Assembly (NCBI GenBank): GCA_016870995.1
Contig: VFZU01000039.1
Location: 1 to 44,951 of the forward strand
Direction of reading: 5' to 3'
Source: Acidobacteriota bacterium
GTDB lineage: Bacteria; Acidobacteriota; Terriglobia; Bryobacterales; Bryobacteraceae
Length of the DNA: 44,951 nucleotides
Part shown: one piece after another, positions 9,844 to 28,531 of the stretch
Position numbering within the stretch: position 1 is the first letter of the stretch
Layout of the letters: each line of letters starts with the position of its first letter
Made by a program: the position numbers and the translations under genes
Notes under the pieces: model-generated
Told to the model about the DNA's origin: nothing
Databases searched by the model: none
What the model saw: only the letters and a program-made list of their open reading frames with translations

Positions 9844-10601
9844 GACAGATCCGCCGCGGTGCGGTTCTGCTCGCCAACGGTGCGAACGAACAGGTCTTCC
9901 AGTGTTTCCCGCTCGCCGCCGTCGCGGAGTTCATCGAGCGTTCCTTCGGCAACGAGTTTTCCTTCGTGGATGATCGCGATCCGGTCACAGAGGCGCTCTA
10001 CGACTTCGAGCACATGCGAGGTCAGAAAGATCGTCGCGCCGCCCTTGACGAGATCCAGCAAAAGGTCTTTCATCAGCCGCGCGCCCACGGCGTCGACGCC
10101 CTCAAACGGTTCATCCATCAAGAAGAGCTTTGGACGGTGAATCAAAGCGGCGGCCATGGCGACGCGCTTGCGCATGCCTTTGGAGTATTCCGAGATTAAC
10201 TTGCGACCCGCGGCGTCGAGTTCAAAGAAAGAGATCAGCTCCTTCGATCTTTCAGCCGAGAGCGCACGCCCCAGACCGTACATCCGGCTGATGAATTCGA
10301 GATACTCAGGGCCTGTGAGGTTATCGAAGAGCAAAGTTTCATCGGGCACGAGGCCAATGGATTGCTTCGCCTTTAAGCCAGCGGCGGGAAGATTGGGATC
10401 GATTTGCTCACCCAAAAGGAATATCTCGCCTGATGTCGGCTGGGCTACTCCCATCAACATTTTGATGGTGGTAGTTTTACCTGCACCGTTTGGCCCAAGG
10501 AAGCCATAAAAGCAGCCCTGGGGTACGGAAAGGCTCACGCCATCCACCGCAGCCTTGGATCCATAAGTCTTTCGAAGGTTTTTCGTTTCGATGGCTACCA
10601 C
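9834..10601 (-). CDS. ABC transporter ATP-binding protein
   Basis: Nucleotide-binding subunit that powers the adjoining permease. Walker A is GPNGAGKTT (residues 36-44), the signature motif is a variant EYSKGMRKR (138 onward), and Walker B is LFLMDEP (159-165) followed by FEGVDAVG. The YSKGM variant is common in ABC-2 export ATPases of the CcmA/DrrA type. 255 residues, cytoplasmic, peripheral to the membrane. First gene of the run that continues through permease, ftcD, lipA and exonuclease. The start is GTG at 10601; the gene lies back to back with the HDOD gene, sharing a control region of only about 60 bp (10602-10662). Confidence 0.93.
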   Translation of the reverse strand: MVAIETKNLRKTYGSKAAVDGVSLSVPQGCFYGFLGPNGAGKTTTIKMLMGVAQPTSGEIFLLGEQIDPNLPAAGLKAKQSIGLVPDETLLFDNLTGPEYLEFISRMYGLGRALSAERSKELISFFELDAAGRKLISEYSKGMRKRVAMAAALIHRPKLFLMDEPFEGVDAVGARLMKDLLLDLVKGGATIFLTSHVLEVVERLCDRIAIIHEGKLVAEGTLDELRDGGERETLEDLFVRTVGEQNRTAADLSWL

Positions 10602-10662
10602 TTTTTACATTATCGCCGTTCAAGATCGAGCTGACGGCGACGATATGACAAAGGTGGAGCTT

Positions 10663-11607
10663 ATGCCGCTACCCCAAAAGGAATCAGGGAAGATCCCTCC
10701 ACCCGCAGCGACCGACGTGATGAATGCCGAGAATCGGCAATTGCTCCATCGTCAAAAGCTACAGCGGGTGTTGAATAACCTTCCTCCGTTCTCCCCGATC
10801 CTGAACCGTCTGCTTGGCAGCCTCGCCAGTGAAGACGTGCGCTTTAGTGAGCTTGCCAGCCTGATCGAAAAGGACACCGTTCTTTCTGGGCACGTGCTGC
10901 GATTGGTCAACAGCGCTGCCATGGCTCGTCGCAGCAGAATCAATTCGATCTCGCATGCAGTGAGCGTGCTTGGCCTGGTTCGACTGCGCAACTTCCTATT
11001 GAGTCTTTCGATTGCACGGCTGTGGCAGAGTACAAAAACGATCCCGCCTTGGTCGATGGCGCAGTTCAACCTGCATGGGGCAGGGGTTGCGCTGATGTCC
11101 GATCTGTTGGCGCAGAATACCGTTTGCCGCTATCCAGAAGGAGCTTTTCTGGCTGGATTGCTCCATGACTACGGCAAACTTCTGATTGCCGCCGCTCTGC
11201 CTGAGCAGTTCCTCGAGATCCAGAAAATGATGGAAGAAGGCAAGGGTTCGATCGTCGATTGCGAACGGGCAACGACTGGCTTTACCCACCCCGAACTTTC
11301 GGCCATGACCTTGAAGGCCTGGAACTTACCTGAGGACATCGTTCGAGGGGTGGAGTTTCACCATACGCCAGAAGAAGAAAAGGTCGTTCTCGAACCTGGG
11401 CCTGGCATGCTGCTCAGCCGCATTATCTTTACGGCGGACGCAGTCACGCATCATATGGGCTTGCACGTCACCGCCGTTGAAGGCGTGGCCGAGCCATCGC
11501 GCGTCAATGCAATGGCCACGCTTGAGGCACTTGGCTTTGCGGCAAATGCATCTGACATCCTCGACACCTTCGAAACAGAATTTGAAGCGATCCGAGTGTT
11601 CTTCTAG
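10663..11607 (+). CDS. HDOD domain protein
   Basis: Signalling protein with an HDOD domain (an HD-related output domain), about residues 30-235 of the longest frame, from LPPFSPILNRLLGSLAS through SRINSISHAVSVLGLVRLRN and FLAGLLHDYGKLLIA. HDOD proteins act in stress, motility and second-messenger pathways but are mostly without proven enzyme activity; no metal-binding catalytic set is claimed here. The frame opens at 10591, which would overlap the divergent ATPase start, so I prefer ATG 10663, preceded by AAGGTGG (10651-10657, 5-nt gap); ATG 10645 is also possible. No receiver or other input domain is present. Its 3' end overlaps the DUF4175-like gene by 4 bp at a shared CTAG. Confidence 0.85.
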   Translation: MPLPQKESGKIPPPAATDVMNAENRQLLHRQKLQRVLNNLPPFSPILNRLLGSLASEDVRFSELASLIEKDTVLSGHVLRLVNSAAMARRSRINSISHAVSVLGLVRLRNFLLSLSIARLWQSTKTIPPWSMAQFNLHGAGVALMSDLLAQNTVCRYPEGAFLAGLLHDYGKLLIAAALPEQFLEIQKMMEEGKGSIVDCERATTGFTHPELSAMTLKAWNLPEDIVRGVEFHHTPEEEKVVLEPGPGMLLSRIIFTADAVTHHMGLHVTAVEGVAEPSRVNAMATLEALGFAANASDILDTFETEFEAIRVFF

Positions 11608-14600
11608 TTCTTCTTCGGCGCAGCCGAACCTTTGCTGAGACGACGGAAGTACTCAGCCACCTGATCTGCGTAACCACTCGGGACACGGTCTGGCGTAGCG
11701 CTTCGCGCTTCACCACTACCCTCTTTGCCTTCGGCGTCACGACGCAGCTTGAGTTCAAGCTGCTCGAGCACAGGAAGCAATTGCGACCGCATCTGATCCA
11801 CCAGCGCCGGGTTGCCCTTGAACTTATTCGGATCGAGCGCAGCCATGTCCTTCAACAGCTTTTGAATTTCAGCTTGGTCTTCGGGAGTGCCGCCGAGGCG
11901 TCCACGCATTTGCTCCAGATCGCGCAGGCTTTGGGAGAAATTGCGCTCAATGCTGCGGACCTCGGGCGCGTTCGGCAGATTGGGCTGATTCTGACCTGAG
12001 TTCATCGCACCATAGTCGCGGAAGGGGCTGCTGCCACCACCGCCACGCTGCTCATTCGGCCTGCCGTCCTGACCGCGACCGCCGGAGTTACCAGCTGGCT
12101 GACCTTGTTGACCGGGCTGGTTGCCTTGTTGGTTGCCAGCCTGTTGGCCTTGACCTTGTCCAGGTTGTTGACCTTGGCCACCCTGCTGGCCTCCCTGCTG
12201 GCCTTGACCTTGTTGTTGGCCCGGCTGCTGACCCTGGCCCTTTTGGCCTGGTTGCCCCTTTTGATTGCCGGGCTGGTTGCCTTGTTGATTGCCCTGCTGG
12301 TTACCCGCCTGTTGCTGCTGGCGCGTCAATTCGGCAATCTGCTGCCGCAACTGCTCTACTTGTGCCAGTGCCTTCTCGGTTGGATCGGACTTGGTTCCCC
12401 CCGGGCCCGCCATCTTTTCGGCTTCTTTGACCTTGTCGCGCAAGTTATCGAGGGCTCGCGTAATCTCGCGCTCACGGCCGGACATGTATTGCCCATATCC
12501 GCGGCGAATATGCTCGCTCATCATTTTGAGTTTGAGATTCAGGTCTTCTTTTTGGGCATCGCCCAGACCTTCCTGCAGCTTGGCCGAGGCGCTGCGCTGA
12601 GAGCCGCGCAACTGTCTCGCAGCATCCTGCAGGTCTTTCTCAAACTTCTGGTAGTCCTCCATGAGCCTTGATTTTTCGTCGGCCAGACGGTTGGCAGTTT
12701 GTGGGTCCTGACCTTCGCGGAAGCTATCCGAGCGGGCGCCGGGGTTCCGGTTATCGCCCTGTCCATACTGCTGCTTCATCTTGTTCTCGAACTCTCGCTG
12801 ACGCCGGGCGATTTCTTCGCTACGGCGAGACATCTCGCCAAGTTGTTGTTCGCGGCCTTGCTTTTCGGATTCGCGGAGCAGATTTTTCGCCTCGTTCAAC
12901 CGCTCAGCGGCCCGGCGCGCTTGCCCTTCGCTTTGTTGTCCCTGCTGTTGATTTGAGGAGGCCCGGCGCATGTCGTTCGTGGCTTCCTTCAACTGCTCCA
13001 TAGCCTTGTCGACGCGGGGGTCGCGATTGAGCCGATTTTGCTGGCGGCTCTGCTGTTGGCCCTGTTGGCCGTTCGAAGACTGACTCGACGATGAGGATTG
13101 ACCACCTTGTTGCTGCTGGCTCTGCTGTTGATTGCGCTGCATGCGCTCCAGTTCCTGCTGCAGCTTCTCGGCCTCGCGGCGGAGCATTTCCTGCTGCCAG
13201 CGCTTTTCAGAAGCCTGCTGGTTCGGGTTTGAACCGTTGGCCAATTCCTGTTGACGCCGTGCCAGTTCTTCGAGTTTGCGCATCGCCTCGTCAACTTCTT
13301 TTTGCTTTTGCTCGGCGGTCATTTGCTGGCCAGTTTCGTACTGGTTCTTTTCCGTATCGAGCTCGAGGTCGAGCAGGCTTTCGAGGTCGCGCTGCATGCC
13401 GCCACCGCCCCCGCCGCCCTGTTGCCCCATGGCCACTTCGATTTCCTTACGGCGAGCTTCGGCCCGTTGCAGATATTGCAATGCCTTTTGCTCGTGCGGA
13501 AGCGCGTCCTTGAACTTCATCGAACGTAGAGCCTCAACGGCCGGGACCATGGCGTTAGCGGCCTCGGTCATATCTTTGGCCATGGCTTCGATCGTCTCGT
13601 TTTGTCCAGCGAGCTGACGAGCGCGGATGCGCTGAACAAAGGTCTGAGCCTGCTGCCGGAGCTTTTCCTGAGTATCACTGAGGAACTTCGCGTTTTCCTT
13701 TTGTTCCGCAGAGGGCTTCTTGCCTCTTTCTTCCTGGAAGGTGGCGCTAATGATTTCCTTCTGTCGCTGCACAATGTTTCCATCCTGCTGCTCGCCACCA
13801 CCACCGCCGCCACCCATCTGCTGGCTCTGGCGCAATTCACGTTCGTAGGGTTGAGCCTCGAGGAAGAATACGTCCGTCGTGCTTGCAGACTTTGCGTCCC
13901 TCGCTTTGGCATAAAACATGACGTTGTCGCCGGGGCTCAGCTTGAAATCCTCGAGGGCTAGCATGTGCGAACCTTCTCCGGATTTGCTGCCTCTCTTCAC
14001 AGGCAGATTCACGGTTTGTTCCTGCCCACCATTGACCGAATAGTGAAGTGTCATCGAATTGAGGCCGAAATCGTCAGTCGCGTCCACGGCAAAGGCGACC
14101 TCTTCAATCGGGCTGACTTTCGCATCGCGGCCCGGACGCGAGATCTTGATCTCAGGCGGGCCTTCTTTCAATGCTTCGATGAAATAGTCATCACTCAACC
14201 GCACCGCCTTGCCATTCTCCAGCATGGCGAGATGGAATGCACCATCGCGGTTGATAGCCACCGTCACCAAGTGCTTGGTGGGAGATTCGCTGGTGACCGG
14301 CACTCGCGTCCCGTTATCCATGACAAGGACCGGGGTTTCCAGAGGTTTGTCGGTCTCGATTTCGAGATAAGCTGATGTACCCGTAACCGCACGCAAATCG
14401 CCACCCGGGTTCTCTACTTCATCGGGCATCCCAGACCAGCTCGGGAACTTGTAGGTAGTCTTGTACTTCTTGATGCCCGGCAGATCGACAGCCGTCAAAG
14501 TGTACTGCTGGCTCTTGAAGCTACCCGCGACCACATAGTAATCCACGCTATCGGCGAGCCCGGCAAAGAGAAAATTCCATTCATCAACGCTACCGTTCAC

Positions 14601-15302
14601 CGGCATCATCGGAACTTCTTCCCACTTGGCAGCTTTGTGAAAGCGGGCGAAAATTTTGACGCTTGGCGGATTGATACCCGTGATCTTGGCAGTGATCATC
14701 TGGTCGGCGCGGCGGCGTACCTTGGTGGAACCAGGTTCTACTTTGAGCTCACGATTGAAGACGCTGTTCGCCTTCGGAATGCCACCCCACAACAAAGCAC
14801 TTCCCTGCCCGATCCATCCGGGAGTACCCAAAATCAACCAGGTCAGAACAGCCAGACTTACGCTGGCTGCACCGGCAAAACTCGCGAGCCAGGAACTTTT
14901 TACGAGTTGAGAAGGCTCTACCCCACGCGCCTGCTCCCAGGCCTGCTCGGCGACGAGAGCGACCATCGGGTTCGATTGATCCTTGTTCTCGAGGCAAGTC
15001 ATCAGCCGCTGGTCAAGACCAGGCACAGCAGACTCGATGCTTTGTGCGGCGCGGCGGCGATTGATCAGCAACACCGGCGTGACAATGCCGAAGATGAGCG
15101 CCGCAGCGATGCTGAGAAACAACAGGGCACGAGACCAGTTCCAGTTTTCCGGCTGCACGTCGAGGCGGTAGTTGATGGCGACAAGCAAGACCGTCATGGC
15201 CAGAGCGACAGCAGCCGCGATGGCCGCACCCTTCAGAACAGCACCAGCCAGCAGCCGGCGACGCACACGCTCCAGATACCGGTTCAGATACTCAAATGCC
15301 AT
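11604..15302 (-). CDS. Giant Gln-rich DUF4175-like membrane protein
   Basis: 1232-residue membrane-anchored protein, the last gene of the MoxR cluster. Two hydrophobic helices lie near residues 20-45 and 60-80, a third near 140-165 (SFAGAASVSLAVLTWLILG). A beta-rich region (about 170-480) resembling Ig-like or carbohydrate-binding modules follows, probably outside the membrane. Residues about 490-990 are strongly helical, rich in Gln, Glu, Arg and Ala, and should form long coiled coils, broken by Gly runs. Around 994-1071 there is a low-complexity tract of GNQ/GQQ/GQ units, then a helical C-terminus ending in PKKN. This plan matches the poorly characterised DUF4175-type proteins that accompany MoxR, DUF58 and BatA genes. 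A scaffold role is inferred. 11 bp after the BatA-like gene. Confidence 0.8.
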   Translation of the reverse strand: MAFEYLNRYLERVRRRLLAGAVLKGAAIAAAVALAMTVLLVAINYRLDVQPENWNWSRALLFLSIAAALIFGIVTPVLLINRRRAAQSIESAVPGLDQRLMTCLENKDQSNPMVALVAEQAWEQARGVEPSQLVKSSWLASFAGAASVSLAVLTWLILGTPGWIGQGSALLWGGIPKANSVFNRELKVEPGSTKVRRRADQMITAKITGINPPSVKIFARFHKAAKWEEVPMMPVNGSVDEWNFLFAGLADSVDYYVVAGSFKSQQYTLTAVDLPGIKKYKTTYKFPSWSGMPDEVENPGGDLRAVTGTSAYLEIETDKPLETPVLVMDNGTRVPVTSESPTKHLVTVAINRDGAFHLAMLENGKAVRLSDDYFIEALKEGPPEIKISRPGRDAKVSPIEEVAFAVDATDDFGLNSMTLHYSVNGGQEQTVNLPVKRGSKSGEGSHMLALEDFKLSPGDNVMFYAKARDAKSASTTDVFFLEAQPYERELRQSQQMGGGGGGGEQQDGNIVQRQKEIISATFQEERGKKPSAEQKENAKFLSDTQEKLRQQAQTFVQRIRARQLAGQNETIEAMAKDMTEAANAMVPAVEALRSMKFKDALPHEQKALQYLQRAEARRKEIEVAMGQQGGGGGGGMQRDLESLLDLELDTEKNQYETGQQMTAEQKQKEVDEAMRKLEELARRQQELANGSNPNQQASEKRWQQEMLRREAEKLQQELERMQRNQQQSQQQQGGQSSSSSQSSNGQQGQQQSRQQNRLNRDPRVDKAMEQLKEATNDMRRASSNQQQGQQSEGQARRAAERLNEAKNLLRESEKQGREQQLGEMSRRSEEIARRQREFENKMKQQYGQGDNRNPGARSDSFREGQDPQTANRLADEKSRLMEDYQKFEKDLQDAARQLRGSQRSASAKLQEGLGDAQKEDLNLKLKMMSEHIRRGYGQYMSGREREITRALDNLRDKVKEAEKMAGPGGTKSDPTEKALAQVEQLRQQIAELTRQQQQAGNQQGNQQGNQPGNQKGQPGQKGQGQQPGQQQGQGQQGGQQGGQGQQPGQGQGQQAGNQQGNQPGQQGQPAGNSGGRGQDGRPNEQRGGGGSSPFRDYGAMNSGQNQPNLPNAPEVRSIERNFSQSLRDLEQMRGRLGGTPEDQAEIQKLLKDMAALDPNKFKGNPALVDQMRSQLLPVLEQLELKLRRDAEGKEGSGEARSATPDRVPSGYADQVAEYFRRLSKGSAAPKKN
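12090..12320. repeat. Imperfect tandem repeats encoding GNQ/GQQ units
   Basis: The plus strand shows repeated TTGTTG / CTGCTGG / TTGGCCTTG units of 9-21 bp in imperfect tandem order. On the coding (minus) strand they give Gly-Gln-Gln, Gly-Asn-Gln and Pro-Gly-Gln triplets. Such tracts expand and contract easily by slippage, so length variation among strains is expected. Confidence 0.75.
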
Positions 15303-15313
15303 TGCGGTACTCC

Positions 15314-17317
15314 TTATGCTTTCACTTGCAAAAAACGGGCCGAAAGAAAACTTTCAGCCATTAACGCGAGAAAGGCGGCCACGGCCACCCACCACCAAAA
15401 ACTTTGCGACTCGGGCGCCGGGCTGTCCAGACCCGCGGGTTGCCCGCCAGCGGCAGCAGCACCCCTACCGGATTGCTCCCACAGTTGGAGGTTTTCCTTA
15501 CCCACCGGCTCCAACGCCGATTCGCGCCGATCCACATTCACAGCCACCAATTCCTGCCGGTCGTTTTCGCGGCGCACATCGTAAAAGCCCGCTTCGGTCA
15601 GCCGCAGCGTATTGGCTGCGGCAGCTTCCTTCAGGCTCAGCGCACGGTCGCCCTTCGGGCCGATCACTTCCACAGAGCTGGCTCGCTTCTGATCAGAACG
15701 AAGATCCAGATACGAATCCACAAGAAACGAATTCGCGCGGTCTTCGACGCGGCCCAGGTAGTCGGCCGTCTGCTCTACAAATGGAACAAAGCCAGGCTTG
15801 ACGGGCAGATCGTTCGAGATGTTATCGAAGGTCGAAGCAAAAACCAGCACCTTGCCCTCACCCATGATCTTCTCGATCAGCAGCGGGCTGCCATCTTCAA
15901 GCCTTGCAGCGACTAAAGCCCCCTCAGGTGCCGTAATACTAGCGAACTGAAAGAAGCGAACTCCTTCGAGCCGCCCGGTACGGCGCAAAGACGGAAACGT
16001 GGGATCGACATTGGCGGGGGCAAAGAATCGCCACGTGCCGCGCGAGGCCACCTTCGATCCGCCTGAGGTGAAGCCTGCCACCGGAATCGTCGGCATTGCA
16101 GCCGATTGCGGGCCTGCGGCGATCCAGATCGTACCGCCAGATTCAACATACTTGCGCAGCGTTGTCTCAATGCCCTTGATGTTAACACCGGGGTCGTTCA
16201 AAACAACGAAAGCATAGTTGGAAAGATTCGCGGCAGCGGCCGCTCCGGCGCTGAGCTCCTCAACGGCGAAGAAACTCTGTGCGCTCGATTCGAGAGCTGC
16301 CTTAAAGTAGAAACCCGCCCGTGTGCTGCGCTGTTCTTCGATCAAGAGCACTTTCCGGGGATCGGCTTTTTCTACGGCGAAATAGAAGCGATTGTCGTCA
16401 GATAACGCATCGCTATCGGAAATCTCTACTTCCCCGCGGAGCCAACCGTAAGGACCCTCGAGCCCCGTGAACTCGACCGTCGCGCGACCGTTCTCTGGTA
16501 CTTCCACAGTCTTCGTTGCAAGACTTCGGCCATTCACTTTGAGAACCACAGTCTTCTTGGCGGCGGGCGCATTGATGCCAGCCACGGTAACGTTTACCTT
16601 GGCCTTCGATAGATCAGAAAGCGTCTTGGGAGCATTGACGGCTTCAATCGTATAGTTCGCGAGCTTACGACCGATATCAACCACCTTGAGTTCGCTGCCG
16701 GGCTCAAGCGAGAGGTCTGCAAACGAGGGAGGAAGCGCAGTGCGTTGCGCATCGGTGACAAACGTCACCTTGAGCGGACGCGAGTTGGACCGGGCCGAAT
16801 CGCGCAGGGCACGCGACAATTCGGCGAAGCTCGATTTCTCGTCACTGGCCCCGATGCTGTTGATCGCTCCTGTCAGCTCGCCCCGATCTTTTGACGTCTG
16901 GCTCAAGTAGCTGACATGGCTCCCGAGGCTCCACACTTGAGCTGCGGCTGCGGTTGGTAAGGCCGAAGTAGCTTCCGATTTCGCCGCAGCAAGCCGGTCG
17001 CCTTCACGCATCGAAAACGAATTGTCAACGACGACGATGTGGAGGGTGTTGCCCGCATTCAGGATGGCCGGGGGCTTGCTCAAGTAGGGCTGCGCAAAGG
17101 CGAGCGCAATTAATAAAAGCAGCAGCAGCCGCAACGCCATCAACAACTTGTATTTGAGACGGCGTTGGTAGGTGGTCGACTCGGTGCGCTTCTCAAGCAA
17201 CATTGTCGAGGCAAACTCGACCGGGTCCTGTTTGTGCTGCTGCAACAGATGCAACCAAACGGGCAGCCCAGCACCGACCACACCTGCCAGCAACCACCAT
17301 GGAGAAAGCAAGCCCAT
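15314..17317 (-). CDS. BatA-type membrane protein with vWA domain
   Basis: Membrane protein of the BatA family. The N-terminus is the typical double-helix 'BatA' region (MGLLSPWWLLAGVVGAGLPVWLHLL, then a second span LLMALRLLLLLLIALAFAQP), separated by a short conserved loop. A von Willebrand A-type domain follows with the metal-site motif DNSFSM (Asp98, Ser100, Ser102, the DxSxS pattern). Residues about 210-630 form a large extracytoplasmic part including a GATase-like segment (YAFVVLNDPGVNIKGIETTL, GGTIWIAAG), and a final helix lies near 640-660 (FWWWVAVAAFLALMAESFL). 667 residues. Partner of the DUF58 and MoxR genes upstream, with a 6-bp gap. In related clusters such proteins are thought to be remodelled by MoxR; the role here is inferred. 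Confidence 0.87.
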   Translation of the reverse strand: MGLLSPWWLLAGVVGAGLPVWLHLLQQHKQDPVEFASTMLLEKRTESTTYQRRLKYKLLMALRLLLLLLIALAFAQPYLSKPPAILNAGNTLHIVVVDNSFSMREGDRLAAAKSEATSALPTAAAAQVWSLGSHVSYLSQTSKDRGELTGAINSIGASDEKSSFAELSRALRDSARSNSRPLKVTFVTDAQRTALPPSFADLSLEPGSELKVVDIGRKLANYTIEAVNAPKTLSDLSKAKVNVTVAGINAPAAKKTVVLKVNGRSLATKTVEVPENGRATVEFTGLEGPYGWLRGEVEISDSDALSDDNRFYFAVEKADPRKVLLIEEQRSTRAGFYFKAALESSAQSFFAVEELSAGAAAAANLSNYAFVVLNDPGVNIKGIETTLRKYVESGGTIWIAAGPQSAAMPTIPVAGFTSGGSKVASRGTWRFFAPANVDPTFPSLRRTGRLEGVRFFQFASITAPEGALVAARLEDGSPLLIEKIMGEGKVLVFASTFDNISNDLPVKPGFVPFVEQTADYLGRVEDRANSFLVDSYLDLRSDQKRASSVEVIGPKGDRALSLKEAAAANTLRLTEAGFYDVRRENDRQELVAVNVDRRESALEPVGKENLQLWEQSGRGAAAAGGQPAGLDSPAPESQSFWWWVAVAAFLALMAESFLSARFLQVKA

Positions 17318-17323
17318 CGTCGG

Positions 17324-18208
17324 TTACATCCTCCCCTTACGAGCAGCCAGGTATTCACGAAGCCCTGCGTCGAGAGGCTTGTCGGTCGGCATCAGAAAAT
17401 ATTCCATCCCTGCGCCTTGCGCCTTCGAGTGCAGATCTTCAATGTGCTGGTTCATCTTGGCGCGGTACTCGGTTTTGAGGTATTCGGGGGTCACCTCGAC
17501 GGCTTCGCCGCTTTCGATATCAATCATCGTGGCCGGGCCAGCGATGGATGGCTCTAACTCCTGCCGGTCGAGGATATGAAACAGAACGACTTCATTCTTT
17601 TTCCAGCGCAGAGGAGCAATCGTTTGAATCACGGTTTCCGGGTCAGCATAGAAATCAGAGACGACAATCACGAGACCGCGCTGACGAATGTACTCAAGAA
17701 ACTGCGAGAAGGGTTTGGCAAAGTTGGTGTGTTGCCCAACCTCGGCCTTCTCTACGGCATGAAGCACCTTTTGCAAATGACCAACCCTTGAGGCCGGCGG
17801 AATGAACTGGCGCACTTCGTCATCGAACAAGATCAGCCCTGTGGCATCACGCTGCTGCACAGCCAGATAAACGAGGCTTGAAACCAGATAGCGCGAGTAC
17901 TCAAGCTTGTTGGGTTTCTTGCCAAAGCTCATCGACTTCGACAAATCAAGCAGAACCGTAACCTTGGTGTTCGTTTCGCCCTTGTAGCGCTTGAGGTACA
18001 TGCGCTCGGCCCGAGCATAAACATTCCAATCGACGTGCCGCAGGTCGTCTCCGGGCGAGTACATGCGGTACTCGGCAAATTCCTGGCTGAAGCCGAAATC
18101 CGGCGAACGGTGCAGGCCGTTGATGAATCCTTGCACGACAGTTTTCGCGACCAGGTCAAGACCGGAGATCGCCGACAGCACATGCGGATCGAGGTAGTTC
18201 TGTTGCAA
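17324..18208 (-). CDS. DUF58 (vWA-like) protein
   Basis: Cytoplasmic DUF58 protein, almost always encoded next to MoxR ATPases. The DUF58 signature is clear: MYSPGDDLRHVDWNVYAR (residues about 49-66). A vWA fold follows with the metal motif LDLSKSMSFG (Asp88, Ser90, Ser92) and the second loop SDFYADPE. 294 residues, no membrane span. Gaps of 3 bp to the MoxR gene upstream and 6 bp to the BatA-like gene downstream, so these three form the core of the cluster. Probably a MoxR client or adaptor; substrate unknown. Confidence 0.93.
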   Translation of the reverse strand: MQQNYLDPHVLSAISGLDLVAKTVVQGFINGLHRSPDFGFSQEFAEYRMYSPGDDLRHVDWNVYARAERMYLKRYKGETNTKVTVLLDLSKSMSFGKKPNKLEYSRYLVSSLVYLAVQQRDATGLILFDDEVRQFIPPASRVGHLQKVLHAVEKAEVGQHTNFAKPFSQFLEYIRQRGLVIVVSDFYADPETVIQTIAPLRWKKNEVVLFHILDRQELEPSIAGPATMIDIESGEAVEVTPEYLKTEYRAKMNQHIEDLHSKAQGAGMEYFLMPTDKPLDAGLREYLAARKGRM

Positions 18209-18211
18209 CCA

Positions 18212-19237
18212 CTACTCCTTGGGCACCGGAACGTGATTCAAAATCTTGGCCAGCAAAGCGTCGGTGGCCAGTTTGTCGCTTTCCGCCTGGAAGTTCAAAA
18301 GAATGCGATGGCGCAGGATCGGGGTGTAGAGCTTTTGGATGTCTTCGTAGGTGACGTGGTAGCGGCCCGACATCAATGCGCGCGCCTTGGCTGCAAGCAC
18401 AAGATTCTGAATGCCGCGCACGCTCGCGCCGAAGTTTACATACTTCTTGACGAAGTCCGGCGAACTCGCGTCGCTATGGCGCGATGCACGAACCAGCGCA
18501 ACAGCATAGCGGGCAATGCTTTCGGCGATCGGCACCATTCGCACCAGCGTCTGGAAGCCGAGCATTTCTTCAGCAGTGGTGATTGCTTCAGCGCGGGCCG
18601 ATGAAGTTGTAGTCGTCAGCCCGATCACCTTCAACTCTTCTTCCGCGCTGAGATAGTCGAGCACGGTGTTGAACAGGAAGCGGTCCAACTGCGCTTCGGG
18701 CAGCGGGTAGGTGCCCTCAAGTTCAATCGGGTTTTGCGTGGCCAGCACGAAGAAGGGGCTTGGCAATTTGTGATGAGATCCGCGCACCGTGACAGTCCGC
18801 TCCTGCATGGCTTCAAGCAAGGCCGACTGCGTTTTGGGTGGCGTACGGTTGATTTCGTCGGCGAGCACGACATTGCCGAAGATCGGACCCGGAACAAAAG
18901 TCCAGGTGCGGCGGCCCGTGCCCGGTTCTTCCTCAATGATGTCCGTGCCGGTGATGTCAGAGGGCATCAAGTCCGGCGTGAACTGGATGCGCGTAAACTT
19001 CAGGCCAAGGCTGTCGGCAAGCGTGCGCACCAATAGAGTTTTTGCGGTGCCCGGCAAACCGGTGATCAGACAGTGGCCGCCGACAAACAGCGCGATCTGA
19101 ACCTGTTCAAGAACTTCTTCCTGGCCGATGATGACCTTGCGGACTTCGAGGACCAGCGATTGTTGAACGGTTTGGAAGCGATCGACGCGAGCCTTGATAT
19201 CGGTGGTGTCGAATGCCTCATTGGGAGTCATGCTCAT
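18212..19237 (-). CDS. MoxR-family AAA+ ATPase
   Basis: AAA+ chaperone of the MoxR family, which uses ATP to remodel or activate protein complexes, often containing vWA proteins. Walker A is GLPGTAKT (residues 60-67), Walker B VVLADEIN (Asp127, Glu128), with the MoxR-typical SALLEAMQERTVTV and the sensor motif VLATQNPIELEGTYPLPEAQLDRF; the C-terminal lid follows. 341 residues, cytoplasmic, probably hexameric. ATG at 19237 chosen from a frame that begins MSMTPNEAFDTTD. It sits 6 bp after the TPR-protease gene and directly before DUF58, the conserved order in MoxR clusters. Confidence 0.95.
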   Translation of the reverse strand: MSMTPNEAFDTTDIKARVDRFQTVQQSLVLEVRKVIIGQEEVLEQVQIALFVGGHCLITGLPGTAKTLLVRTLADSLGLKFTRIQFTPDLMPSDITGTDIIEEEPGTGRRTWTFVPGPIFGNVVLADEINRTPPKTQSALLEAMQERTVTVRGSHHKLPSPFFVLATQNPIELEGTYPLPEAQLDRFLFNTVLDYLSAEEELKVIGLTTTTSSARAEAITTAEEMLGFQTLVRMVPIAESIARYAVALVRASRHSDASSPDFVKKYVNFGASVRGIQNLVLAAKARALMSGRYHVTYEDIQKLYTPILRHRILLNFQAESDKLATDALLAKILNHVPVPKE

Positions 19238-19243
19238 GAATGA

Positions 19244-21478
19244 TTAGTCCTTGCTCGAATGATTCTCGAGTTCGAGTAATAGCTTCTGGGCAGGCTTGAA
19301 ACCTGGTGCCAACTCGAGAGATTGAAATAGCGCTTCCTGGGCTTGTTGGGGTCGCGACAGAGCGACGTAGGATCTGGCCAAATTGTAATACGCCCCAGCG
19401 GGGTCTACTGGCTTTGAAGCCAGCTGCGCCAGAAACGCGGGCAGCGCGCGGTCTGGCTGTTTGAGATCGAGATAGTATTCACCCAGCTTGCGATGCAGGT
19501 CTTCGTCGCCCACTGGGGAAATGTAGATGAGACGCTTCAGCGCCGCGGCGGCCATGGCCTTGTCGCCGTTCTCTTCTTCAAGCCGCGCTAGATCCTTCAG
19601 AATCTCTGGTTCACGGCCACTGGCCTTGGCATATTCGCGCCAGGCATCTCGCGCCTTCACCTTGTCCCCTTTGGCGAGATACGCCTTGCCTAGAACTTCA
19701 TAGCCTGTAGCAAGAATCGCCGTTGAGGGGTAACCTTCCACCGCACGTCGGGCTTTAACAATAGCGGCGTCGGCATCCTTTTTCGCAAGTGCCTTGTTAG
19801 CGCCGTCAATGGCAGCGCGCAGATCCTTCAGATTGTTGGCTGTCTTGCCGTAACGCGATTCGATGAATTCGAGCAACTTCGCGTCGAATTCCTTGGGCTT
19901 GAGCTTTAAGTGCGTTTCCACGACTTCGGTCGTGGTCTTGCGTTCCGCAAAGCTCTTCACCATCGCGTTCACTGTATCCTGGCCATAGTTCTTTACGATC
20001 CAATCCAGCGCCTGGCCCGCTTGAAAGTAGCTGAGGCCGATCTGCAGAGGATCCTTGGGACGCACAAAGCCGCTGTCGAGATCTTCGACGGGCAAGAACT
20101 TCTTCTCTTTGATCGCCATCAAGACGGCAGATTCCACCGGGTCGCCCCAATCGGGCGAGGCCATCGTTTCCTCATGAACACTAATGCCTTCTGTAAACCA
20201 GCGCGGCACGAGAAACTTGCTCATCACCAGAATGTAGCTATGGCTGAGTTCATGCCAGAGCGTGGAGGCCCAATGATAATCCCCGCCCTTGCGTGCTGAA
20301 GGTGAATCCATGGCGACAACCGGGCCGAAGCTGACACCAGTCGCTCCCAATCCAGGCAGCCCCATCGTGCGCACCGCAAAATCCTCGTGGTCGGGGTAAA
20401 CCTCAACCTCAAGCGGCACATTCATCTTCATCTTGTATTTCGCTTCGTAGGTCTTGCGCGCCTTGCTCACTTCTTCTTCGAAGTAAGGCTGGAGAATGGC
20501 CGCTTCCTTCTTGTGCAGCCGCACTTCGCCGCCTTCGAACTTATGCGACACAAAGTTCTTGTAGCTGTCCATGAGCGTGAGCGAATTCACCACTTCGCTT
20601 GAGTCGTACTTGTTGTTGTACGCCATGTCTAATTGCTCACGGGCTTCAGACGGCTTGCCGATCCTCATGAGATTGATACCAAGCTGCTCGCGGGCCACCC
20701 ACAAATCTGGCGTGAGCGCGACCGCCTTCCGGTACAGCTCAATTGCTTCCTCATAACGGCGATTCATCACAAAGTGATGCCCGGCCCAATACCAGGCTTC
20801 GCCGTACTTGGGGTTGATCGCAAGCACCTTGTCGAACCAGGTCGTAGTCTGGTTCTTCAGCAATTCAATCGTCCCGAGCGTGGCCATCGCGTTCAAGCTT
20901 TTCGGGTTGATCGCCAAAGCCTTATTGGCTTCTTCGACCGCTTTCTTTTCGTCGGAATTCTCGAGCGCCAACTGAGCCATCAGCTCTCGGACTTCATAGA
21001 GACCCGCATCGGCCTCTGCCGCAGCCTTGGCCAGCTCAATCGCTTTGGAATCGAAGCCGCGCGACATAATCCGGGCGAGCGCGAGCATCCCTTGCGCATT
21101 ACCCTTATCCATCTCGAGCGCTTCGCTGATCAACTTGATCGCTTCGGCTTTATTGAATCGGCTCCAGAACAGAAGGCCGTAACGAATCCTCAGATTGGCG
21201 TCGCCTGGATATTGCTCGAGGGCCTTTTCGAATGCTTCCTTGGAATCCTCCACCTTGCCCATGCCCCAATGGCCTTCGGCACTCAAAGCGGGGGACTTGT
21301 CGGCCATCAATTCGACAAAACAATTCGTGGCCTCAACGGTTGAGCCCGTTTGTTTCAAATCCCAGCAGCGAGTCGCTTTGGCGCGATCGTAGGGCACTCC
21401 GGCAGCCTTCTTTACTACCGGCTTCTGCGCCAGCAACGCCCCGATCGTCAGGACGCCGATCACACTGATGCGCATCAC
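19244..21478 (-). CDS. TPR protein with HExxH (gluzincin-like) protease domain
   Basis: 744-residue exported protein. A signal peptide (MMRISVIGVLTIGALLAQ) is followed by TPR repeats (about 50-310; e.g. YGEAWYWAGHHFVMNRRYEE), then a metallopeptidase domain (about 325-550) with HELSH (409-413) inside LWHELSHSYILVMSKFL and a downstream WFTEGISVHEE that supplies the Glu ligand, the plan of the peptidase-MA/gluzincin group. A second TPR set (about 560-735) closes the protein. It probably works in the periplasm or on the cell surface; substrate not known. It starts 4 bp inside the caspase-like gene (ATGA-type overlap) and is followed after 6 bp by MoxR, so it belongs to the same unit. A protease in a MoxR cluster suggests the complex handles or matures proteins. 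Confidence 0.85.
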   Translation of the reverse strand: MMRISVIGVLTIGALLAQKPVVKKAAGVPYDRAKATRCWDLKQTGSTVEATNCFVELMADKSPALSAEGHWGMGKVEDSKEAFEKALEQYPGDANLRIRYGLLFWSRFNKAEAIKLISEALEMDKGNAQGMLALARIMSRGFDSKAIELAKAAAEADAGLYEVRELMAQLALENSDEKKAVEEANKALAINPKSLNAMATLGTIELLKNQTTTWFDKVLAINPKYGEAWYWAGHHFVMNRRYEEAIELYRKAVALTPDLWVAREQLGINLMRIGKPSEAREQLDMAYNNKYDSSEVVNSLTLMDSYKNFVSHKFEGGEVRLHKKEAAILQPYFEEEVSKARKTYEAKYKMKMNVPLEVEVYPDHEDFAVRTMGLPGLGATGVSFGPVVAMDSPSARKGGDYHWASTLWHELSHSYILVMSKFLVPRWFTEGISVHEETMASPDWGDPVESAVLMAIKEKKFLPVEDLDSGFVRPKDPLQIGLSYFQAGQALDWIVKNYGQDTVNAMVKSFAERKTTTEVVETHLKLKPKEFDAKLLEFIESRYGKTANNLKDLRAAIDGANKALAKKDADAAIVKARRAVEGYPSTAILATGYEVLGKAYLAKGDKVKARDAWREYAKASGREPEILKDLARLEEENGDKAMAAAALKRLIYISPVGDEDLHRKLGEYYLDLKQPDRALPAFLAQLASKPVDPAGAYYNLARSYVALSRPQQAQEALFQSLELAPGFKPAQKLLLELENHSSKD

Positions 21479-22392
21479 TTGTCGAGCTCCTGCTGAATGC
21501 GCGCCACCTGCAACAACAGATTGCGCATCTCAAGGCGGTACTGGTCAGACGGCATCGCCGCTTTGCGGAGCTTCAAATTGTCGATCTGCAGCTCGATGGC
21601 TTCTCGCTGCTTGAGCAACGCCTGCTTCTCTGGAGACTTTGCGGCATTCTGCAGCGAACCGAACAAGAGAACGGGCATGCGCATGGCCACCATCGCCTCG
21701 CCCTTGGTGGGATCGGGCGTGCGGAAGCCAGCCGAGCTGGAAGTATCGGCCAACAACGGGTGCTCCGTCGCCAGACGCTTATTGGACTCGTAATACTTTG
21801 CCGTCTTCGTCTCTGCGTACCGATAGGCTTCAAGAGCCGAGATCACGTCATTCTTGTCTGCGTCGGCTTGAGGGTCGCGCAGCGCTTCCAGCCAGTAGCG
21901 CGCAAATACGGTGGACAACTTCTCGGTTCCACTTTTGGTGGCCGTGATTACCGTGCGGCCTTCCTGCCTCAAATCAGCCAGGCTGCCACCGCTTGCACTG
22001 GTCGTGTTCACCAGCAGCTGGCGCTTGGCGGGCACCGGCAGCATCCACATCGCTAATTCTTTGGCTGTCACATCGGGCCCAACCAGATTGAATTTGTACT
22101 CAACGCCATCGAACGTGCCGTGCCCGATCATCGTCACGACCAACGCGTCATCCGCTTTGGCTTCTTTGGCGATCTCGGCAAAAGTGTCTTTGATTTTCGC
22201 CTTGCTCGCCATGGCACCACTCAGACTGAATGCTTTCGACTGCGGAGCACCTTTGGTCAGCTTATCCAGTTCTTCCACTTGCGCCTTAAAGCGAGTCTCA
22301 TAATCCTCTTGCCCACCCAGGCCTCCCAGATTGACGTAGAAGGTGGTCGCGGCGAGCGGCGCACACATAATCAAGAACACAACGTGCTTCAT
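21475..22392 (-). CDS. Caspase-fold (C13/C14-like) protein lacking the catalytic Cys
   Basis: Exported protein with a signal peptide (MKHVVFLIMCAPLAA, then TTFYVNLGGLG). The first 200 residues follow the caspase/legumain-like plan: a beta strand LVVTMIGHGTFDG with the catalytic-type His91, then a second strand ending in LLVNTTSASGGSLADL where active members have (D/S)xCxSGG. Here the Cys position is Ser132, so a cysteine nucleophile is absent. A conserved-looking TVITATKSGTEKLSTVFARY segment follows. The C-terminus (250-305) is a coiled coil (KQREAIELQIDNLKLRKAAM). It may be inactive or use Ser. It directly follows the vWA/GATase gene without a gap and overlaps the TPR-protease by 4 bp. Fold assignment is from motif order and not certain. 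Confidence 0.65.
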   Translation of the reverse strand: MKHVVFLIMCAPLAATTFYVNLGGLGGQEDYETRFKAQVEELDKLTKGAPQSKAFSLSGAMASKAKIKDTFAEIAKEAKADDALVVTMIGHGTFDGVEYKFNLVGPDVTAKELAMWMLPVPAKRQLLVNTTSASGGSLADLRQEGRTVITATKSGTEKLSTVFARYWLEALRDPQADADKNDVISALEAYRYAETKTAKYYESNKRLATEHPLLADTSSSAGFRTPDPTKGEAMVAMRMPVLLFGSLQNAAKSPEKQALLKQREAIELQIDNLKLRKAAMPSDQYRLEMRNLLLQVARIQQELDK

Positions 22393-24645
22393 CTATACAG
22401 CTCCCCATCGGCGGCGCAGCAGCCATTCGGCGGCCTTGGCCCCGAACAGCGCCATCAGCAGCGCCGGCATGTTCCACAATTCTTTGGTCTCGCGGGTGGT
22501 GATGCCCGCCTCGGAATACGCAATATCGTCTGGCAAAGACTTGGCCGTCGCCGGCGTGTAATAGTTGCCGCCCGTTTGGCGGCTCAGGCCCTCCAGCAAC
22601 TGGCGATTCTGTTCTGCGTGAAAGCTCTCGGCCACACCGTCCTGGCGAATCATCGTGAACACGTCGCGCCCCATTTCTTCTTTTCCATTCTTGGCCAGCA
22701 CTTCGACGATGTAACTGCCGGCCTTCGGCGCGTCCCATTTCGATGTAAAGATTCCGGCTTGATTGGCATCGGGAGTGAGCGTCAACATGGCCGAGACACC
22801 TCCAGGGCCGAGAATGCGCGCTTCCACAGTTGCGGCAGATACGGGATTGTAAGCCTTGTCACGAACGTCAGCGCGAAACTCAACATTGCCATCATCGAGC
22901 AGTAGTTGTTTGGATGGCGCGGCGCTAATCTGCGGTGGAGTTTCTGTGACAAGCCACCGCAGGCCCTGCTGCCAAAACAACTCGTGGCTCAAATCCTTGA
23001 CGTCTTGTGACATCTGCCAGCGCCAGGTACCGCTGCTGGCAAAAACAACGCTGCGGCCGCGGCCATAACGCTGGGTCACAAGCAACGGGTGCCTGCCCTT
23101 GCTCGTAGGCAGCGCGTCGACCAGAACCGTCGCGCCTGGCTTGGCCGGGCCCGTCTCCTGATAGTTCGCCATAAAGGGCAGCTTCTTCCAACGGTCTTCG
23201 TTCCGCTTCGGGTCTTCTTCGATGCGCACAATCAGACTGTCGCGACCTGCTTCGGTCAGCTCCGCCGTGGCTGGATCGCGATGAAACGTTCCTTTTCGAT
23301 CCGTCAAGGAAACGGGAATCATCTCGGCGACAGAACTCGCCGCCCAGCCTCCATCACTCAGGGCTCCGCGCCCCGCCAGGAACATCACACCACCGCCTCT
23401 GCGGTCGGCGAAGTTCTTAATCATGGCTTGTTGCTGCGGCGTAAACCAACTGGCCTCAATGCCACCAATCATCAAACCGCTGAATTTGAACAGGTCTTCT
23501 TCTTTGACAGGAAAGCCTTGTTCCAGTTCTTTGGGGTCTTCGACGCCCTGACGATAGATCTTGTTCTGGGTAGTACGCAGCATCGTGGTGAGCTGCAAGT
23601 TCCGATCACCTTCAAGAGCGCGGCGGATGAATTTGAAGTCCCACTTGGGCTCGCCTTCAACGTACAGGATGCGCGGCTTGAGGCTTTCGACATTGATCAG
23701 CCTCGTCTGGGCATTGTTGCTTGCGTTCTCTTCGTCGGGCAGCTTGACCACAGAAGCCTTCACATTCCGAGCCCCAGCCAAGCCGGCATTAAACAGCAAC
23801 GTTTCGGTTTGCGGCGTACCATCTTCGCCCAAGGCAACTTCGCGCGAGGAGACGATCTTGTCGTCGGCCATCAGCCCGATTTTCGCCTTCTGACCTTTGT
23901 AACCGTAGTGGCGGAATGTCACCGCCGCCCCAATGCGGCTATCGGACAGGGCCCGCAGCGGCACATCGAGATCGATCACTTCAATATCTTTGCTGAGCTT
24001 TTCAGCCCCAAAGCCAACCGTATGGATCGGGATCCTACGGCGGCGGATTTCTCCGAGCGTCTCAGCCTCCATGCCGCCAGAATTGTCGCTACCGTCGCTC
24101 AACAAAACGACAGCGCCAATCGGCAGGCTCGCCGATTCTTCCATCATCTGTTTCATCGAGCCGCCGAGATGCGTCGTGTTCTGGTTGCCGGTCACAGCAT
24201 CAAGGGTCTGAATCCGCTCCAGATTTTCGCCAGCCCTGTAAACGCGCACCTGGAAGCGGCTCTTCATCTTGTCAAGCAGGCCCCCGGTCAACAATTGCTT
24301 GGCCGATTCAATGCGCGACAGATCTTCCTGCTTCAGCAGCATACTGCGCGAATCGTCCACCACGACGGCAATCACGTTCTGCTGCGGTTTCAGCGCCGTC
24401 ACTCGCAAGGCTGGCCGCCACAACATGAACAGCACCAGGCACAGCACAACACCTTGCAAAGCGGCAATCGCAATCCAGCGCCGGCCTTTCAGGTTGTCGC
24501 CATGCTGCTTAAAAACTAGATAGCCGACGGCGGCGACAAGCGCCAGGGAAACGAATACAAGCAACCACACCGGCCAGCCTGAAGCGAACAGAAATTCGCC
24601 TTTAGTGAATAAGCGGTATGGATAGAGGAACAACGATTCGAACAT
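22393..24645 (-). CDS. Membrane protein with vWA and glutamine-amidotransferase-like domains
   Basis: 750-residue membrane protein common in MoxR/BatA clusters. Two N-terminal helices (about 22-45 and 56-77) precede a vWA domain with the metal motif VVDDSRSM (Asp97, Ser99, Ser101; DxSxS) and a second conserved stretch GAVVLLSDGSDNSGG. The central part contains a class-I GATase-like fold (ILYVEGEPKWDFKFIRRAL, FSGLMIGGIEASWFTPQQQ, GGVMFLAGRGALSDGGW) that lacks an obvious Cys nucleophile, so it is likely structural. Immunoglobulin-like strands and a final helix near 725-745 (MPALLMALFGAKAAEWLL) complete it. Most of it should face the periplasm. Lies 23 bp after the DUF4159 gene; no gap to the caspase-like gene. 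Confidence 0.85.
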   Translation of the reverse strand: MFESLFLYPYRLFTKGEFLFASGWPVWLLVFVSLALVAAVGYLVFKQHGDNLKGRRWIAIAALQGVVLCLVLFMLWRPALRVTALKPQQNVIAVVVDDSRSMLLKQEDLSRIESAKQLLTGGLLDKMKSRFQVRVYRAGENLERIQTLDAVTGNQNTTHLGGSMKQMMEESASLPIGAVVLLSDGSDNSGGMEAETLGEIRRRRIPIHTVGFGAEKLSKDIEVIDLDVPLRALSDSRIGAAVTFRHYGYKGQKAKIGLMADDKIVSSREVALGEDGTPQTETLLFNAGLAGARNVKASVVKLPDEENASNNAQTRLINVESLKPRILYVEGEPKWDFKFIRRALEGDRNLQLTTMLRTTQNKIYRQGVEDPKELEQGFPVKEEDLFKFSGLMIGGIEASWFTPQQQAMIKNFADRRGGGVMFLAGRGALSDGGWAASSVAEMIPVSLTDRKGTFHRDPATAELTEAGRDSLIVRIEEDPKRNEDRWKKLPFMANYQETGPAKPGATVLVDALPTSKGRHPLLVTQRYGRGRSVVFASSGTWRWQMSQDVKDLSHELFWQQGLRWLVTETPPQISAAPSKQLLLDDGNVEFRADVRDKAYNPVSAATVEARILGPGGVSAMLTLTPDANQAGIFTSKWDAPKAGSYIVEVLAKNGKEEMGRDVFTMIRQDGVAESFHAEQNRQLLEGLSRQTGGNYYTPATAKSLPDDIAYSEAGITTRETKELWNMPALLMALFGAKAAEWLLRRRWGAV

Positions 24646-24668
24646 TCGTGCTCTTTGGAGGAGATGCT

Positions 24669-25481
24669 TTAGTGCGTCATGCTGTAGATGATGTAATTCA
24701 GGCCTATGCGATAGGCCATGGAAGTGTATCGCTCAGGGTACTGCGGCATGTCGGCATGTTCCCAGGCGTCTCCCAAATCCATGTTGTGGCACATGGCAAC
24801 CACGATTCGCCCCTTTTCGTCATAGATGCCTCCCCATTTTTCCTTCATCCCATCCTGCTCATAGGTGTTTCCGGTGTAAAACATTACGATGCCCGGGATC
24901 TGGATGCGATCTTCCAAATCGAACAACATGTGGAAGATGGCGTCTTTGTTGGGGATGTCGACCACTGGCCGGTCCGGGAACACGCGGCTCATGGACCTCA
25001 TGAAGATCTCCCACTCGATCGTGCCGTGGAAGTCGTCCACCATCAGAAAGCCGCCGCGGTTCAGATATTCACGTAATTTGGCCGCTTGCGAGTCGGTGAG
25101 ATCCCAGTGCCCGACCTCGACACCGTAAATCCAGGGGTAGTCGAAGATCTTGTCCGTGTCGAGATCCACTACTTCTTCGACGCTGCGCACGTGCACCCGG
25201 GAAAGCCGCCGGATGCCCTGCGCAAAATGACGCTCCGCCTTGGGATAGTCGGTCGACCAGCTACCGCGAACTCCCCACATCCCGGCACCCTGCCGATAGG
25301 AGTTGTAACGCAACCGGGCAAAAACCCACTCCGTTTTCTCCGCGGCATCGGTGGGATAAGGCTCTGGAAGATCATCATCATCCAAAAAAGGCAGTCTGCC
25401 ACGCCTCTGGAAGGCGAGACATGCTCCGGCCAACAAGAGAACGACACAAATGGCGCGAAGATGTCGATTCATTGCCATCAC
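24669..25481 (-). CDS. DUF4159 protein, exported
   Basis: First gene of the MoxR cluster. Residues about 50-270 match DUF4159: FARLRYNSYRQ, RGSWSTDYPKAERHFAQGIR, then a GATase-like core with YLNRGGFLMVDDFHG, a VFPDRPVVDIPNKDAIFHML segment and the conserved GRIVVAMCHNMDLGDAWEHA ending. A hydrophobic N-terminus (LRAICVVLLLAGACLAFQ) acts as signal peptide. 270 residues with the longest start (GTG, 25481); ATG 25478 or ATG 25472 are as likely. DUF4159 is regularly found with MoxR, DUF58 and vWA genes; its biochemical role is not established. Divergent from citrate synthase across a region that holds an inverted repeat. Confidence 0.9.
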   Translation of the reverse strand: MMAMNRHLRAICVVLLLAGACLAFQRRGRLPFLDDDDLPEPYPTDAAEKTEWVFARLRYNSYRQGAGMWGVRGSWSTDYPKAERHFAQGIRRLSRVHVRSVEEVVDLDTDKIFDYPWIYGVEVGHWDLTDSQAAKLREYLNRGGFLMVDDFHGTIEWEIFMRSMSRVFPDRPVVDIPNKDAIFHMLFDLEDRIQIPGIVMFYTGNTYEQDGMKEKWGGIYDEKGRIVVAMCHNMDLGDAWEHADMPQYPERYTSMAYRIGLNYIIYSMTH

Positions 25482-25507
25482 CCAGAATGAGCCTACTCTA
25501 ACACGGA

Positions 25508-25539
25508 CGAAACAAAGTGCATCTCGTTACCCTGTTTCG
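25508..25539. promoter_or_regulatory. Inverted repeat in the gltA / MoxR-cluster control region
   Basis: Perfect 7-bp arms CGAAACA (25508-25514) and TGTTTCG (25533-25539), with centres 25 bp apart, lie in the divergent control region between the DUF4159 gene and citrate synthase. The spacing is compatible with binding of a dimeric regulator on one face of the helix. No clear -35/-10 pair is visible here in either direction. Confidence 0.35.
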
Positions 25540-25614
25540 ACAACTATTTAATCGGTGGCGGTCCCGGAGCGATCGATTCCGAGACATAATTTATGTTTGG
25601 AGCGAAACGCGAGC

Positions 25615-28469: not shown

Positions 28470-28483
28470 TCAAATACGCATCC

Positions 28484-28524: not shown

Positions 28525-28531
28525 ATTATCC

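Follow-up and report, generated by a model that had tools for sequence, protein, structure and literature searches.

Positions 1 to 44,951 of contig VFZU01000039.1 from an Acidobacteriota bacterium (assembly GCA_016870995.1, family Bryobacteraceae), called the window hereafter, carry eight minus-strand genes between 11604 and 25481 that we tentatively read as an inner-membrane MoxR machine of the Bat/cmd type to which an extracytoplasmic module would be coupled; this module would consist of a metalloprotease, hereafter TPRpep, and a pseudo-caspase, hereafter CASP, serving as adaptor or gate. An initial annotation had described these genes as one uninterrupted unit, and the open reading frames (ORFs) of the window bear this out: coordinates and strand are confirmed, the intergenic distances are 23, 0, -4, 6, 3, 6 and 11 bp in transcription order, and the gene order (DUF4159, vWAGAT, CASP, TPRpep, MoxR, DUF58, BatA and DUF4175-like, from 5' to 3') recurs in 80 named loci. 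Such a spacing, 23 bp at most, suggests a single transcript for the eight genes. The genes and their sites of interest are the following (aa, amino acids; MIDAS, metal-ion-dependent adhesion site).

24669..25481, minus strand: DUF4159 protein, first gene; 270 aa; PF13709, 161 bits; signal-peptide-like hydrophobic stretch at residues 6-26.
22393..24645, minus strand: vWAGAT, putative vWA and GATase-like membrane protein; 750 aa; from sub-cut-off Pfam matches and a structure model.
24343..24357, minus strand: MIDAS motif DxSxS of vWAGAT, residues 97-101; D97, S99 and S101 invariant in two alignments (A4, A5).
21475..22392, minus strand: CASP, predicted pseudo-protease of caspase/legumain fold; 305 aa; signal-peptide-like N-terminus; from AlphaFold2 and Foldseek.
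22120..22122, minus strand: His91 of CASP, histidine at the catalytic position; conserved column.
21997..21999, minus strand: Ser132 of CASP, at the catalytic cysteine position by alignment to L040 and metacaspase-4.
21829..21864, minus strand: EF-hand-like DxDxNxxxSxxE loop of CASP, residues 177-188; from the alignment.
19244..21478, minus strand: TPRpep, TPR and Peptidase_MA_2 protein (Pfam); 744 aa; signal-peptide-like hydrophobic stretch at residues 4-22.
20240..20254, minus strand: zinc-site motif HELSH of TPRpep, residues 409-413; H409, E410, H413 and E430 invariant in alignment A2.
18212..19237, minus strand: MoxR AAA+ ATPase; 341 aa; AAA_3, 208 bits; no membrane segment.
17324..18208, minus strand: DUF58 vWA protein; 294 aa; DUF58, 146 bits; no membrane segment.
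15314..17317, minus strand: BatA-type membrane vWA protein; 667 aa; BatA (PF07584), 53.5 bits; TIGR02226 double-membrane anchor, 59.3 bits.
11604..15302, minus strand: DUF4175-like membrane protein, last gene; 1232 aa; Gln/Gly-rich stretch; three N-terminal membrane segments.

The window CASP has no Pfam match at an E-value of 0.1, and its lone NCBIfam match, the EACC1-associated caspase, lies far below cut-off (E 4.7e-4; 19.7 of 140 bits). Its AlphaFold2 model, built from 58 sequences, has a mean predicted local distance difference test score (pLDDT) of 91.2 and a predicted template modelling score (pTM) of 0.87, and the top Foldseek matches are legumain (E 1.3e-7), MALT1, GSU0716 and caspases, with template modelling scores (TM-scores) on the query of about 0.4-0.5. 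On the strength of this model, we are confident that CASP adopts a fold of the caspase/legumain type (clan CD). At E 0.01, Pfam detects C13 in 12/58 members and C14 in 5/58, with no match for the window protein. The nearest solved sequences by profile are metacaspase-4 (6w8r; E 3.6e-6, alignment A1) and GSU0716 (3bij; E 0.0017, alignment A3), from which CASP differs in that only about 100-110 residues align, in its two long C-terminal helices and in its lack of the cysteine.

The catalytic cysteine column was set by alignment to a caspase-like protein of the L040 locus and to residue 139 of metacaspase-4, an alanine in 6w8r that we take to be the mutated catalytic cysteine. At this column, Ser is found in 92 of 101 cluster members, and E (3), T (2), A, P, G or N in the others; Cys is never found (0/101). 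The His91 column holds His in all 100 members that cover it, one further member having a gap. The His-Cys dyad of an active caspase is therefore incomplete, with His present and Cys absent at the aligned column. The initial annotation had counted two peptidase-like members: this stands for the HExxH protein TPRpep, the only one of the two that looks able to cut, and fails for CASP, in the window and in 101/101 members. In the 177-188 loop, D177, D179, S/T185 and E188 are nearly invariant, and its resemblance to an EF-hand suggests that it may bind calcium. When compared with its homolog in a Bryobacter metagenome-assembled genome (MAG), the window CASP is 85% identical in amino acids, with a nonsynonymous divergence (dN) of 0.087, against 0.090 for MoxR; this strong conservation argues against decay. 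The gene set is found in many relatives with its order mostly kept, so that the inactive caspase is likely to be a functional, conserved component. The L040 reference protein (9049-10485), from the same phylum, has intact HG and CFSGG motifs, and none of our eight families mapped there above the scores used within the 20 kb read.

The kinship with MoxR-DUF58-BatA-DUF4159 sets, also proposed at first, holds, the Pfam scores listed above for DUF4159, AAA_3/MoxR, DUF58 and BatA all being over their cut-offs. MoxR and DUF58 are adjacent and a BatA-type membrane vWA protein (PF07584, TIGR02226) is present, as in Bat/cmd-type operons. The Peptidase_MA_2 match of TPRpep reaches 34.9 bits (cut-off 32.4), and the protein has the HExxH and downstream Glu of a zincin; among its homologs over 600 bits, HExxH...W.[ST]EG is kept in 96/97 (exception L112). 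The DUF4175 match of the last gene stays under cut-off (25.6 against 27.3 bits), as do both matches of vWAGAT (GATase1_like, 26.3 against 27 bits; VWA, 18.1 against 23.8 bits). The DxSxS motif announced for three vWA-fold proteins is indeed present in all three window sequences and is kept in homologs: DxSxSM in 93/93 vWAGAT homologs over 600 bits and, above the scores set, DxSxSM in 92/92 for DUF58 and DxSxS in 82/82 for BatA. MoxR has its Walker A and B patterns in 95/95 homologs above the set score. One correction applies to the vWA set, as the 750-aa protein appears to join its vWA domain to a GATase-like region: from its model (pLDDT 87.7, pTM 0.71; helices 26-48, 56-75 and 727-747; alpha/beta and beta-rich parts) and the Pfam matches, we read vWA, Ig-like, GATase-like and Ig-like parts between membrane helices. 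Foldseek with the whole vWAGAT model returned low TM-scores only (at most 0.36 among the 50 rows listed), leaving this domain reading unconfirmed.

To follow the gene set in relatives, we retained the best 80 of 568 confirmed matches as named loci, and the counts given here describe close relatives only. ORF picking hid CASP or BatA behind shadow ORFs; hence, counts were made from profile hits on all ORFs, above set scores. Fusions of CASP and TPRpep were considered and discarded, the long TPRpep ORFs being over-extended starts and no CASP domain being found in ORFs of more than 600 aa. The record titles of the 80 loci read Acidobacteria, Terriglobia, Bryobacterales and relatives, with Terriglobus roseus, Terriglobus albidus, Edaphobacter aggregans and Edaphobacter modestus among them; Terriglobus roseus DSM 18391 and Edaphobacter are available in culture (loci L127, L107, L114). 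Four records, all MAGs, bear the labels Gammaproteobacteria (L092, L102, L110) or Acidimicrobiia (L133), probably wrongly. Among the named loci listed, L062 (an Acidobacteria MAG) and L063 (a Bryobacter MAG) come closest, with TPRpep 81% identical. When sorted by stop codon, and as far as contigs reach, the families follow the window order in 80/80 loci, DUF4159 being absent in some; the sole departure is L088, with one more MoxR-like ORF upstream, and L077 has BatA before DUF58 if sorted by mechanical start. All eight families are found in 46/80 loci (42 exact, four with an extra or split gene), with DUF4175 as the last of the eight in these 46. Where MoxR, DUF58, BatA or DUF4175 is absent, the contig always ends within 723 bp. 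Fifteen loci with vWAGAT have no DUF4159, ten of them with at least 1.8 kb of upstream sequence; DUF4159 is therefore not a constant member. CASP precedes TPRpep in 75/80 loci, and the remaining five (L091, L102, L103, L110, L121) start inside or at the start of TPRpep, at a contig edge; a loss of the peptidase-like genes, looked for in these neighbourhoods, was thus not seen. Finally, over 77 loci, the protein distances of vWAGAT, CASP, TPRpep, MoxR and DUF58 are correlated in all ten pairwise comparisons of their matrices (r 0.93-0.95; permutation maximum 0.37), which shows co-inheritance, not contact.

A wider view was obtained from an even draw of 119 Acidobacteriota genomes, in which a group of strong matches is set apart from weaker ones by a wide gap. 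Strong matches to CASP (E <=2.4e-76), TPRpep (E <=5e-212) and vWAGAT fall in the identical 29/119 genomes. At E 0.001, five more genomes match the CASP profile weakly (1.5e-8 to 5e-4; 34/119 in all), and the TPRpep profile matches 119/119 because of its TPR repeats. DUF4159 is found in 31/119 genomes (the 29 plus G080 and G015), and a BatA-domain protein in 67/119 at E 0.001, including 37 genomes with BatA and without the CASP, TPRpep and vWAGAT trio; among four such regions (L146, L148-L150), three have MoxR-DUF58 without the trio and one has BatA only. In a draw at class level, CASP is present in 71/151 genomes and in 29/29 listed genomes of the family of the window; that this family has no CASP-less genome rests on the order by kinship in which the genomes are listed, 60 negatives not being among those listed.

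Within the 29 genomes, vWAGAT lies immediately upstream of CASP, on the same strand and within 357 bp, for 32 of 33 strong CASP genes; the exception is G014, where CASP lies beside TPRpep and vWAGAT, DUF4159, MoxR, DUF58, BatA and DUF4175 are on another contig. In the layout of the window (layout A), TPRpep comes after CASP. From these linkage counts, the firmest pair is vWAGAT-CASP, TPRpep being tied to the genome set without always being a neighbour. Given this co-occurrence, the mostly conserved linkage and the parallel divergence (r 0.93-0.95), the protease and caspase-fold genes do belong to the conserved unit, as was initially claimed. The position of DUF4159 varies: it may open the cluster, lie between TPRpep and MoxR, or occur in both places. 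In G107, a second cluster (L153, contig C19) holds vWAGAT, MoxR, DUF58, BatA, DUF4175 and three DUF4159 genes without CASP or TPRpep. The genome of the window has two more DUF4159 genes, of 136 and 129 bits, on contigs C31 (L002/L034) and C46 (L003/L035); they lie outside the MoxR clusters seen, and none of the other seven families is convincingly close in the 20 kb read, L034 having only a 54-bit TPR match about 8 kb from the DUF4159 gene.

Several observations weigh against our reading of the unit. No strong match to any of the trio was found in 89/119 genomes of the phylum, and G080 (75% complete) has fragments only, of vWAGAT and TPRpep. Two of 34 vWAGAT genes have no adjoining CASP (G014 C158, G107 C19). 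In a second layout (layout B; for example, L036, L054, L151, L152), TPRpep stands at the head and vWAGAT-CASP at the end, about 10 kb apart. Four layout-B genomes have second clusters with CASP and without TPRpep (G077 C209, G041 C33, G028 C17, G116 C6), and the sole CASP cluster of G088 also lacks TPRpep, which lies on another contig (L155) with the other seven families unmapped in 20 kb. Synonymous divergence (dS) is close to saturation or beyond it and could be computed for only four of the eight genes, so that dN/dS is only indicative. Finally, the weaker alignment to GSU0716 moves the cysteine column of CASP by one residue, to 133, where 13/101 members have Cys; the window protein reads Ser132-Ala133 and is therefore without catalytic cysteine in either register.

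Spread beyond Acidobacteriota was viewed through plasmid records only. Among 72,556 of them, CASP and TPRpep matches at the limits used were confined to plasmid 1 (1.1 Mb) of Gemmatirosa kalamazoonensis (Gemmatimonadota), which has all eight families (L142, 7873-22986), listed as vWAGAT, CASP, TPRpep, DUF4159, MoxR, DUF58, BatA and DUF4175; its CASP spans two reading frames and, in the one frame read, has the His and Ser of CASP. One Azospirillum and one Methylobacterium replicon have MoxR, DUF58, BatA and vWAGAT homologs in one run, as in the window, and the Azospirillum set is presumably the equivalent of the cmd operon of Rhizobium leguminosarum (cmdA-D, RL3499-RL3502). These two loci differ from ours in having no CASP or TPRpep match in the 10-kb flanks read and a vWAGAT only 22-24% identical. 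A Planctomyces plasmid has DUF58, BatA, vWAGAT and a weak DUF4175 match, again with no CASP or TPRpep match in the stretch read. The simplest history would start from an older MoxR-DUF58-BatA-vWAGAT core; CASP and TPRpep would have joined it in a lineage common to Acidobacteriota and Gemmatimonadota or passed between them.

How might such a machine work? MoxR-vWA pairs have been described as a chaperone with its peptide-binding co-chaperone (PMC7159879). The eight genes probably encode a chaperone machine of the cell envelope. Hydropathy gives signal-peptide-like N-termini to DUF4159, CASP and TPRpep, membrane segments to vWAGAT, BatA and the DUF4175-like protein, and none to MoxR and DUF58. 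The initial annotation had favoured a surface location; these N-termini fit the periplasm or the inner membrane at least as well. MoxR and DUF58 would thus be cytosolic, BatA, vWAGAT and DUF4175 in the membrane, and DUF4159 exported, TPRpep and CASP forming the added extracytoplasmic module. CASP, unable to cut, might bind a peptide or a partner through its caspase groove, dock on the periplasmic part of vWAGAT and present clients to the zinc protease TPRpep, or gate it. ATP hydrolysis by MoxR, relayed by the MIDAS vWA proteins, would remodel the complex, and selected envelope proteins would be matured or removed. The most economical reading of this predicted arrangement, with the ATPase pair in the cytosol, vWA proteins in the membrane and a protease and pseudo-protease outside it, is that envelope proteins are handled at the expense of ATP and that their proteolysis is regulated; the protein processing suggested at the outset may be part of it.

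The eukaryotic protein cFLIP is a pseudo-caspase that acts as a regulator. A more specific proposal, which we regard as rather unlikely, is that CASP is a bacterial counterpart of cFLIP-type regulators: an ancestral protein of caspase type would have lost its nucleophile and become the regulatory subunit of a zinc protease whose fold is unrelated, under the control of the MoxR-vWA ATPase from across the inner membrane.

An ordinary Bat/cmd envelope-integrity operon, with CASP and TPRpep as structural peptide-binding accessories and proteolysis not central, is possible, if doubtful. MoxR, DUF58, BatA and TPR genes are described in Borrelia, Bacteroides, Leptospira and Rhizobium, cmdA-D of R. 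leguminosarum being linked to envelope integrity and morphology changes (PMC5700661); MoxR and bat have also been linked to thermal and oxidative stress tolerance (PMC11834572). The core genes of the window do match such operons, CASP has no catalytic cysteine, and some CASP clusters have no TPRpep. However, TPRpep is present in each of the 29 CASP genomes, and the HExxH...EG motif kept in 96/97 homologs implies that catalysis has been selected. The Bat operon for aerotolerance in Bacteroides shares MoxR, DUF58, a BatA vWA protein and TPR proteins with the window; DUF4159, a GATase-like vWA protein, a pseudo-caspase and an HExxH-TPR protease are not listed in the available part of PMC5700661, and the TPR protein of the window is a predicted metalloprotease.

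CASP could also be an active hydrolase, with Ser132 in place of Cys, paired with His91. This would agree with the constant His (100/100), with Ser in 72/75 named-locus members and with the same pair in the single Gemmatirosa frame read, but Ser is replaced by E, T, A, P, G or N in nine of 101 members, six of them among the 26 from the phylum draw and the window, and we regard this activity as improbable. Pseudo-orthocaspases, which have a caspase fold without the His-Cys dyad, are a known parallel (PMC6426788); the dyads named there are YS, YA, FS, YN, YG, QC and HA, whereas CASP keeps the His, has mostly Ser for Cys and stands in a MoxR operon. The word "Acidobacter" does not occur in the main text of that paper.

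Two merely adjoining units, DUF4159-vWAGAT-CASP-TPRpep and MoxR-DUF58-BatA-DUF4175, would explain why layout B rearranges them and why G014 parts CASP-TPRpep from the rest; this is quite improbable, as the complete layout-B loci (L036, L054, L151, L152) keep all eight genes in one cluster and MoxR and CASP distances correlate (r 0.93).

MoxR-vWA systems of biological conflict (immunity) resemble our locus in bringing together MoxR, vWA and caspase domains, the last often inactive (about 70% of those in effector position), and so offer a precedent for an inactive caspase beside MoxR and vWA proteins; their architecture is different, with a VMAP, iSTAND, FtsH or beta-propeller third component and variable effectors (PMC7159879). 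No VMAP, iSTAND, FtsH or vWA-beta-propeller partner was found among the eight proteins with Pfam, NCBIfam and PADLOC, and no separate search with a VMAP-specific model was made. We consider such a role the least probable of all and set a defence system aside: the window MoxR matches bpMoxR above cut-off (45.5 of 27 bits) and CASP has its faint EACC1-associated caspase match, but PADLOC gave no convincing match (best, mad8 on MoxR, E 1.2e-5), DUF58, DUF4159 and "Acidobacter" are not mentioned in the main text of PMC7159879, and the window has separate exported proteins in a fixed order, with CASP in all listed genomes of the family.

Around the unit, a citrate synthase gene lies upstream in divergent orientation, and an HDOD-domain gene (10591-11607, plus strand) is convergent downstream, with a 4-bp overlap with the 3' end of the DUF4175-like gene. 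The latter (11604-15302) has a very Gln/Gly-rich stretch in a region of strong AT skew (-0.386 at 12001-14000). No minus-strand promoter-like site was detected in 11300-25800, where the totals of promoter-like and terminator-like sites are at chance level. Further away, a protein with a Gly-rich tail (28436-29581, plus strand) has no Pfam match at 1e-5 and perhaps resembles FecR. Our literature search found nothing on this gene set, nor on DUF4159 alone or with MoxR, nor on operons of MoxR and von Willebrand proteins in Acidobacteria, and one report on DUF4175, concerning an Acinetobacter division protein.

MoxR-vWA operons are widespread, but little is known of the envelope proteins on which they act; in the present one, a protease is built into the machine, together with a protein of caspase fold that has had little or no family annotation. 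The question of the targets of MoxR machines thereby becomes testable, through the substrates of TPRpep and their control by CASP and MoxR. If our reading is true, it would also reveal a caspase fold conserved for a non-catalytic role in an operon of the cell envelope.

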